Source of the DNA: Nostoc commune NIES-4072
GTDB lineage: Bacteria; Cyanobacteriota; Cyanobacteriia; Cyanobacteriales; Nostocaceae
Assembly (NCBI RefSeq): GCF_003113895.1
Contig: NZ_BDUD01000002.1
Location: forward strand, 62,001-126,000
Reading direction: 5' to 3'
Length of the DNA: 64,000 nucleotides
Below the pieces are notes generated by a model, which saw only the letters and a list, made by a program, of their open reading frames with translations, was not told the origin of the DNA and made no database searches. Each line of letters starts with the position of its first letter. The first letter of the stretch is position 1. This document shows, piece after piece, positions 59,386 through 61,384 of the stretch. The position numbers and the translations under genes are program-made.

Positions 59386-59784
59386 ATGAATCCTAAATGG
59401 ACTGATGAAGAACTAGCAATCGTTGAAGAAATGGCTTGTCTCAACACTGTTAAGCAAATAGCTTATCGCCTCAAAAAAAGAGGATACACCCGCTCAACAT
59501 CAGCTATTCAAAAGAAACTGCGCTTTTTAGGATACTCCGCACGTCCAATCCTTGATAACTACAACTGCTGTGAAATAGCCAGAGTTTTACAACTTAATTC
59601 AGCGACTGTTTGGACTTGGGTAAAAAAAGGATGGATTCGTACAACCAAACACTCTGGAAGATATCACCAAATTAAGAGCAAAGACTTAAAACGATTTCTT
59701 GAAAACCCACCTCAACGTATTAAGAACCGGATTGCTGCCATTGATAAAGATGCTATCGAATACTTGGTAGGGAGGTTGGAATGA
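59386..59784 (+). CDS. Two-domain HTH DNA-binding protein
   Basis: 132 residues, GGAGG before ATG. The N-terminal part (WTDEELAIVEEMACLNTVKQ, STSAIQKKLRFLGYS) looks like a SANT/Myb-type helix triad. The second part (CCEIARVLQLNSATVWTWVK, then KGWIR and YHQIKSKDLKRFL) is a MerR-like HTH. Its stop overlaps the methyltransferase ATG (ATGA), so the two are coupled; it may regulate or guide the methylase. Confidence 0.65.
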   Translation: MNPKWTDEELAIVEEMACLNTVKQIAYRLKKRGYTRSTSAIQKKLRFLGYSARPILDNYNCCEIARVLQLNSATVWTWVKKGWIRTTKHSGRYHQIKSKDLKRFLENPPQRIKNRIAAIDKDAIEYLVGRLE

Positions 59785-60046
59785 CAGAACAATTCACCAC
59801 CCTTAAAACTCAAAAAGTCCTTGACCTTTGTTCTGGCATTGGTGGTTTTACCCTTGGTCATCTGATTAGCGGCGGTTTTGAGACTGTAGCTTTTTGCGAG
59901 ATTAATCAGTATTGCCAACAAGTTCTAAATCTGCGCTTCCCACAAATTCCAATTATCCCAGATATTCATGACATCACAGTTGAGTCTCTTTACCAAGTGG
60001 GAGTTAGAGAAATTGACGGCATCATCGCCGGATTACCCTGCCCTCC

Positions 60047-60183
60047 CAATACTGCTCGGATAAGCAGGGGAGGCAGGGGAAGCAGGGGAGGCAGGGGAGG
60101 CAAAAACTCAACGCCAGCCTCCATTTCTCCCCCTGCTCCCCCTGCTTGCCTCAACCAAGAAATTCCTTAACCGAGCAGTATTG
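60047..60183. mobile_element. 137-bp MITE with CAATACTGCTCGG ends and 10-bp target duplication
   Basis: Begins CAATACTGCTCGGATAAG and ends CTTAACCGAGCAGTATTG. Flanked by CCTGCCCTCC at 60037-60046 and 60184-60193. The interior has GCAGGGGAGGCAGGGG and CCCCTGCTCCCCCTGC arms that can pair. Same family as 33213-33323. Confidence 0.9.
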
Positions 60184-60846
60184 CCTGCCCTCCTTTCAGC
60201 CTTGCGGGGAAACGTGAAGCCTCGAAAGACAAGCGCAACCTGTTCGGGGAATTCTTTAGAATCATTTGCGAGATTCGACCAGACTGGGCGATTGTGGAAA
60301 ACGTTCCCGGACTGCTTACTGCTGAGGGAAGTGAATTTTTCCGTGCCGTACTTTGGGAGTTTGCCTCGCTGGGGTTCGATGTCGAGTGGGGAATTGTTTC
60401 GGCAGCAGAGGTGGGGGCCGTCCATAAACGAGAAAGAGTTTGGATTATTGCCCACTCCCAAAGCTCAAGACGGCGAACATCCTGGAATCAGCGCATACAA
60501 GAGAGGACAAACGCTGCATCTGTCGGCGGCGGTGATGATGACTTCCAGAAACACAGATTTACCAACTCAGTTTACCCTGAGCGCAGTCGAAGGGTTGAAT
60601 ACGGAGCGCTCCCTGAACCCGCATCTAATAGAGGCGATGATCGGCGTACCACAGGGCTGGACGGATGTCTCCTTACCCACGCCGGACTTGATTATTGGCT
60701 CACCTCTGCGACAATCCCCAGCTTCCATCGGCTTAATCGTACTGAAATTGCAGCGCTTCCGGCAGATAGCCAAAAAGAATATTGCCAACTCTATGCAGAA
60801 TACCAAAGCCTCAGAAAACAACACACAGAGCAAATCAAAGCTTTAG
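60181..60846 (+). CDS. Overlapping second-frame protein inside the methyltransferase gene
   Basis: In the +1 frame relative to the methyltransferase, 222 codons are open (the start is uncertain; the frame also continues upstream of the MITE). The translation reads SGNSLESFARFDQTGRLWKT, LPRWGSMSSGELFRQQRW, FGLLPTPKAQDGEHPG and LNPHLIEAMIGVPQGWTDVS. These resemble a phage/plasmid protein type that I recall with SWKT, PRWG.M..GEL, LPTP..D and LNP..VE.LMGFP.GW motifs. The same DNA (60194-60460) encodes methylase motifs VI and VIII in the other frame. It is either true dual coding or a frameshifted methylase middle part. Confidence 0.45.
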   Translation: MPALLSALRGNVKPRKTSATCSGNSLESFARFDQTGRLWKTFPDCLLLREVNFSVPYFGSLPRWGSMSSGELFRQQRWGPSINEKEFGLLPTPKAQDGEHPGISAYKRGQTLHLSAAVMMTSRNTDLPTQFTLSAVEGLNTERSLNPHLIEAMIGVPQGWTDVSLPTPDLIIGSPLRQSPASIGLIVLKLQRFRQIAKKNIANSMQNTKASENNTQSKSKL

Positions 60847-60925
60847 GAAATGCGATTGTGCCTCAATGCGCTGCACTAATTTTTGACCGACTTAAAAGAA
60901 TTTTATCTCAACAAAGGAAAAACGC

Positions 60926-61384
60926 ATGATTGACAACGTTAATGCGCTTCAAACAATCTGGTATCTCTCGCCACCTTGGAGACAAACAATTCCACCTGTT
61001 GAGGTCAATTTACTAGAGAGAGTATACCTCAGAACTACGAGAACATTCGGTTACTGCTGTGGAATTCAATGGAAACACGAATGCTGGATTTATTCAATTG
61101 ATTGTCGTAATGAAATTGTTCACGTTACACAGCATCAAATCATTGGGACTGGAGATTTAGTTCCCCTGCCCGTGCCAAAACCGGCTTTTGTTTTGGGGCA
61201 AAGAGTGATGCTTTGTTCTCACGACAAGGGAACAAAACAACGGCTGATTTTGGGAATTGCACTGGTGCATAATTCTTGGTTTTACCTTGTTGAATTGATG
61301 TCGCCAACGTTAATTAAGACACCAACTATATCGAATCGTTTCTCATTAGTTGGTGAAAAAAGTTTGATGCGGGTAAATGCTTGA
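60926..61384 (+). CDS. DUF1392-family protein
   Basis: 152 residues: NALQTIWYLSPPWRQTIPPV, EVNLLERVYLRTTRTFGYCC, WIYSIDCRNEIVHVTQHQII. This is a Nostocales plasmid family of unknown function. ATG overlaps the methyltransferase stop. Confidence 0.7.
   Translation: MIDNVNALQTIWYLSPPWRQTIPPVEVNLLERVYLRTTRTFGYCCGIQWKHECWIYSIDCRNEIVHVTQHQIIGTGDLVPLPVPKPAFVLGQRVMLCSHDKGTKQRLILGIALVHNSWFYLVELMSPTLIKTPTISNRFSLVGEKSLMRVNA

Follow-up and report, generated by a model that had tools for sequence, protein, structure and literature searches.

A C5-cytosine methyltransferase (MTase) gene of Nostoc commune NIES-4072 lies at positions 59781-60929 of a 64,000-nucleotide stretch of contig NZ_BDUD01000002.1 (positions 62,001 to 126,000 of the forward strand; hereafter the window), and a second frame is open within it. 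We refer to the MTase frame (frame 0) as α and to the +1 frame as β; all parts of both lie on the + strand and are separated by an inserted repeat. The 5′ part of α (59781-60046) holds motifs I-IV up to the insertion (open reading frame (ORF) list; PF00145, E 4.5e-13 over 59781-60167). Its 3′ part (60184-60929) holds CPPFS, a remnant of motif IV, what we take to be motifs VI (ENV) and VIII (HKRERVWIIA, 60423-60452), and motif X (IKALGNAIVPQ, from 60834), and it matched PF00145 (E 4.4e-26, 60186-60926) and PHROG 363 (E 2.5e-38). Translation of the 5′ part of β runs from an ATG at 59968, which matches the ATG start of an intact paralogue, to the insertion (59968-60046). Its 3′ part (60184-60846; ORF list) carries LWKTF (60292-60306), LPRWGSM..GEL (60361-60396), LPTPKAQD (60448-60471) and the motif-IX-like LNPHLIEAMIGVPQGW (60613-60660), and it matched PHROG 1008 (E 1.3e-13). 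The first-pass annotation had described two open frames here, and both were found: a +1 ORF of 221 amino acids after the insert (60181-60846, TTG to TAG) and an MTase frame open over 60186-60929, with every +1 motif it quoted present and MTase motifs VI and VIII in the other frame. The ORF is real, but 60181 is not its start, which comparison with the paralogue places at ATG 59968. The annotation had also considered that the second frame might lack homologues before 60460 and be only a frameshifted methylase tail; the PHROG 1008 match covers residues 2-107, so homology extends upstream of 60460 as well and amounts to more than chance.

The insertion is a miniature inverted-repeat transposable element (MITE)-like repeat of 137 bp (60047-60183) with 13-bp inverted ends CAATACTGCTCGG/CCGAGCAGTATTG. 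It is bounded by a 10-bp target-site duplication, CCTGCCCTCC, with its left copy at 60037-60046 and its right copy at 60184-60193; these three features were recognized in the sequence and have no strand. The repeat is rich in GGGGAGGC. The 8.2-Mb genome (G000) holds 47 full or partial matches to it, one of them 100% identical over 135 bp (G000:C1:450722-450856; L433). Read from ATG 59968, β stops inside the repeat at 60061-60063 and resumes beyond it, and the MTase frame is also stopped within it, at 60168-60170. Because the repeat puts stops in both frames, the window copy can make neither protein whole. The window locus is thus a copy that this small element has inactivated, and the ORF at 60181-60846 is a 3′ remnant of β whose TTG start the insert happens to provide. 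The interest therefore lies in the class of genes rather than in the window copy.

A paralogue on the same contig has both ORFs complete (match G000:C2:683193-683879; L002). Its α is an MTase of 342 amino acids (PF00145, E 2.9e-41), and nested in the +1 frame is an intact β of 252 amino acids, opened by an internal ATG (PHROG 1008, E 5.4e-16). The window β peptide is 83% identical to this β over residues 2-221. In both copies the motif-IX-like LNPHLIEAMIGVPQGW is read from the +1 frame and motif X from frame 0. Profile searches with β beyond PHROG returned little: the window +1 peptide had no Pfam match at E<=1, four β proteins found nothing in NCBIfam and three found nothing in PADLOC, and a search of PDB sequences with the β profile gave a single chance-level match (E 1.2). 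As a separate observation, the α of L002 matched the PADLOC model of the Druantia DruM2 methylase nearly end to end (E 5.8e-40), as well as MTase_II models.

We then surveyed the relatives of this gene pair. The closest named relatives found for the window locus lie on Nostoc plasmids. Translated searches with β matched 59 records of phages and 4 of plasmids (E<=0.01), and those with the β of a Leptospira plasmid matched 64 of phages and 5 of plasmids (E<=1e-5), including a plasmid of the archaeon Methanomethylovorans. In the first eight loci opened, with frames reckoned from coordinates, the match lay in +1 relative to the annotated MTase in six; in SOVA965 and in Dylan gp6 the annotated coding sequence is the β frame itself. 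The first-pass annotation had named homologues overlapped with methylases as support for a second gene, and such homologues exist: in the first locus set the +1 match overlapped an MTase in the same relative frame at 110 of 111 loci (98 distinct). Scanning viral contigs, together with genomes taken one per species, yielded further relatives, many full-length, in records named as Proteobacteria, Patescibacteria, Verrucomicrobia, Actinomycetota, Spirochaetia, two archaeal metagenome-assembled genomes and others. In Pseudomonas aeruginosa phage phPA-G and Vibrio phage 1.236.O, β alone is annotated and α is also open. PHROG 1008 matched the β frame in seven further loci, as well as frame 0 of one-piece forms of the enzyme. 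Each scan retained its top 80 out of 240 to 594 confirmed matches, and the sets were partly ascertained through β itself, so they are no census of C5-MTases. From 351 loci (L001 excluded), 337 had an MTase frame spanning approximately motifs I-VIII; 292 of these were distinct, and reduction by shared 4-mers left 126 representatives, all distinct. Both frames are present in hundreds of loci. Four cyanobacterial loci (L096, L097, L100 and L108) have +1 ORFs that extend beyond the α stop to 448-689 amino acids; two of the four reach the end of the locus, and they look like β with further domains, although these ORFs gave no Pfam match.

Selection on the two frames was examined in three ways. In the first, the synonymous codons of α were shuffled within each gene and the longest +1 ORF was compared. 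All 44 non-redundant viral MTases found through a frame-0 pattern had a +1 ORF longer than the shuffles (p<=0.05), with a mean of 258.5 codons against 97.6 after shuffling; the +2 frame of the same genes averaged 49.4 against 50.1. The test was passed by 118 of the 126 representatives, compared with 8 of 95 flanking control genes (a control ORF was available in 95 of the 126 loci). A variant that also fixed the first base of the next codon was set aside, because it barely changes the set of +1 codons and so cannot test +1 stops; observed lengths still exceeded it in 20 of 52 loci.

The second test, the codon-position analysis that the first-pass annotation had proposed, compared substitution rates in close pairs of distinct sequences and did reveal selection on the second frame. 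Of 81 pairs, 71 were usable, the others being left out for a missing motif match or a short ORF, and some kinship among pairs remains. Up to motif VIII, the frame-0 third position was the fastest in 68 of 69 pairs, and amino acid identity was 86.8% in frame 0 versus 70.7% in +1. Between motifs VIII and IX the pattern reversed: the +1 third position was the fastest in 65 of 71 pairs, and identity was 62.1% in +1 versus 42.6% in frame 0. The same reversal was seen in 9 of 10 pairs with both members from the frame-0-ascertained set and in frame-0 alignments (some with doubled contigs), where frame 0 became conserved again after motif X. The reversal also extends to the window's own family: between VIII and IX, the window and L002 differ at 15 first, 11 second and 4 third codon positions of frame 0. 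Earlier counts of 81/99 and 89/99 pairs came from runs with doubled contigs and were replaced by the distinct-pair counts; removing doubled contigs altered counts, not the direction of any result.

In the third test, the +1 codons were shuffled instead and frame-0 stops were counted between VIII and IX (97 of the 126 loci, including 32 of the 44 ascertained through frame 0). The frame-0-ascertained set had 6 stops where 155 were expected, and frame 0 was stop-free in 31 of 32 loci where 1.4 were expected. Together, the three tests indicate that between VIII and IX β is selected for its sequence and α for openness. Both frames are under selection, and the selected frame switches at motif VIII. 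From these patterns, the +1 frame is almost certainly coding, a real gene overprinted on the MTase. Shine-Dalgarno (SD)-like sites were also commoner at β starts, where 83 of 126 had one (59 of 91 among starts more than 30 nt inside α), than at 1773 other ATGs in the same genes, of which 22% did. In 20 loci the β ATG lies 4 bases after the α start.

The distribution of motifs points to what β may do. α carries motifs I-VIII and X, and β carries the motif-IX-like LNPxxVExLMGxPxGW. With strict patterns, 212 of the 292 distinct loci had IX in +1 together with X in frame 0, and one had IX in frame 0. Among related actinophage genes, some encode the two parts as a single protein and others as separate ones (77 of 80 actinophage-type loci used, 74 with distinct N-terminal frames). 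Moonbeam, like 26 of these 77 viral contigs, has motifs IX and X in a C-terminal segment that stays in the frame of motifs I-VIII. In Mycobacterium phage Dylan (L003), motifs I-VIII are in gp7, and LPTP, IX and X are in gp6, in +1 with a 209-nt overlap; the two are annotated as overlapping DNA methyltransferases. Separately, in Streptomyces phage Darolandstone (L010) the MTase frame has an extra stretch between IV and VI and an ADAxGxRR-rich linker, which reads in +1 as several LPTPxAxD-like repeats. The fused actinophage forms, a weak alignment to M.HhaI and a structural model suggest that LNPHLIEAMIGVPQGW is motif IX.

We consider it likely that the two frames encode a two-polypeptide C5-MTase resembling M.EcoHK31I, whose overprinted subunit would hold motif IX and the target-recognition region. 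Frame 0 would encode α, a C5-cytosine methyltransferase chain that has motifs I-VIII and X, and +1 would encode β, with motif IX and the variable, LPTP-containing region in its C-terminal half. Together they would form one methyltransferase in which α binds S-adenosylmethionine and performs the chemistry, while β supplies motif IX and probably the part that recognizes the target. Between VIII and X, α would be mostly a sequence-tolerant linker, kept stop-free because motif X must be translated. Production of both proteins, their assembly and the setting of the target by β are suggested here by sequence patterns. With somewhat less assurance, we favor extending this to a large class of C5-MTases in phages, bacteria and archaea, whose specificity determinant (target-recognition region and motif IX) would be a separate protein overprinted in +1 and whose apparent recognition region in α would be a nearly neutral linker.

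The first-pass annotation had proposed an accessory protein embedded in the methylase gene. The embedding stands; an accessory unrelated to the enzyme gives way to what is probably its motif-IX and target-recognition part. That β is a separate protein merely overprinted on the MTase, such as a regulator or a partner for a target other than α, would fit the openness of β upstream of VIII and the long cyanobacterial +1 ORFs that run past the α stop. It is nevertheless unlikely, as β holds the motif IX that α is without, and actinophages have C5-MTases that carry the C-terminal segment of β as an in-frame fusion.

If ribosomes shifted from 0 to +1 after VIII and back before X, so that one enzyme resulted, this would account for a selected frame that runs 0, +1, 0 along the gene; we regard such frameshifting as quite improbable. 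Two shifts would be required, and X_XXY_YYZ slippery heptamers were not enriched near motif VIII (7/3548 versus 134/33324). Frameshifting has no need of an open frame 0 through VIII-IX, yet frame 0 stays open there, nor of an open β upstream of VIII, yet β was more open than shuffles over the first 165 codons in 84 of the 126 representatives (p<=0.05). Furthermore, 125 of the 126 have a +1 ORF that begins with an ATG. Hardly credible is the remaining alternative, that the +1 ORF is a shadow, an unused frame whose apparent openness and conservation come from codon bias and the conservation of the MTase: +1 does share conserved columns with frame 0 in motifs VI-VIII and the +2 frame retains some consensus too, but synonymous shuffles did not reproduce the openness of +1, and the greater conservation of +1 between VIII and IX, with its coding-type position pattern, refutes a shadow there because a shadow cannot exceed its source in conservation.

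Several observations weigh against the two-subunit reading. With a looser pattern, 23 of the 126 representatives had no motif IX, including 9 of the 11 from the cyanobacterial order; among the 77 actinophage-type loci, 13 lacked motif IX in all frames, and in 5 it lay behind stops. The β motif-IX sequence scored -3.9 bits against M.HhaI, below significance. The family is sparse in cyanobacteria: the β profile matched 18 of 291 genomes of the window's order (E<=1e-4), and PHROG 1008 matched 2 of 292 genomes of the phylum (E<=1e-5) and 0 of 14 control genomes. AlphaFold modelled β alone with low confidence (mean predicted local distance difference test (pLDDT) 62.7, predicted template modelling score (pTM) 0.29) and the model had no PDB match at E<=0.001, so no fold supports a recognition domain; in a model of the fused form, the LPTP region had pLDDT 25-46. 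A site-wise consensus test placed its strongest columns at the +1 LPTP and LNPxWVEWLMGxP, but was unspecific in motifs I-VIII, where the +2 control was also positive (z 6.2 versus 12.5 for +1, and 12.8 versus 18.7), and we give it little weight. The SD test is crude, because only 55 of the 126 α starts, themselves roughly placed, scored in it.

Known enzymes offer partial parallels. In M.EcoHK31I, the β gene is nested inside the α gene in another frame. PMC3404938 describes this enzyme (YGGCCR) as a large chain with motifs I-VIII and X and a small chain with motif IX, the same motif split as here when compared by described layout. That text places the predicted target-recognition domain in α, not β, which also counts against our assignment, whereas selection between VIII and IX in the class studied here acts on the β frame and points to β. 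M.AquI (CYCGRG) is an α/β C5-MTase of two chains split within the variable region (PMC3404938) and resembles the Corndog-type actinophage gp7/gp6. Both IX and X are on its small chain; the window and L002 keep X in frame 0 and are not of the M.AquI type. One-piece C5-MTases (M.HhaI; mycobacteriophage methylases such as Moonbeam gp69) have the same motifs, but in the window family the LPTP region and IX are encoded in the second frame. PHROG 1008, matched by β, is a family compiled from annotated phage ORFs and named 'DNA methyltransferase', a name silent on the second frame. ShiLan also has an out-of-frame ORF in a phage methylase, a hidden HNH endonuclease, but that is a mobile HNH insertion (PMC11855218), whereas here the methylase's own DNA is used. 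A hidden HNH endonuclease of this type was rejected for the window: no HNH was found in its +1 peptide, which had no Pfam match. Searches of open-licence literature for an overlapping second frame in C5-MTases turned up M.AquI, M.EcoHK31I and ShiLan, and no description of the class in the passages covered; subscription papers and REBASE were outside this scope.

The MTase gene is flanked by two genes whose stops and starts overlap it, both on the + strand. Upstream is a helix-turn-helix (HTH) protein (59386-59784; ORF list; HTH_17, E 3.5e-6) whose stop overlaps the α start in an operon-like manner, and downstream is a DUF1392 protein (60926-61384; ORF list and profile search) whose start overlaps the α stop. 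The DUF1392 neighbor recurs, as a similar ORF after the L002 paralogue and as an annotated DUF1392 gene after the MTase in Nostoc locus L008. The window gene also contains a 24-nt stretch with CCCTGAGCGCAGTCGAAGGG at about 60575-60598, presumably a small palindromic repeat by its appearance, which adds 8 codons in both frames and breaks neither. Opposite it, the alignment shows a gap of 8 codons in the Nostoc copies L008 and L345 and related sequence in L002.

If the two-subunit reading is true, many genes listed as a single 'DNA cytosine methyltransferase' have only half of what they encode annotated. Expressing the annotated frame by itself would then yield an inactive protein, and any specificity predicted from that frame would have no meaning. 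Split calls such as Dylan gp6/gp7 and the phage records that list either frame would be explained. If the apparent recognition region of α is a nearly neutral linker, specificity would evolve in the frame that annotation ignores. The family would then represent a widespread, nearly full-length overprinted gene pair, in which fused, split and nested forms of one enzyme could be compared.
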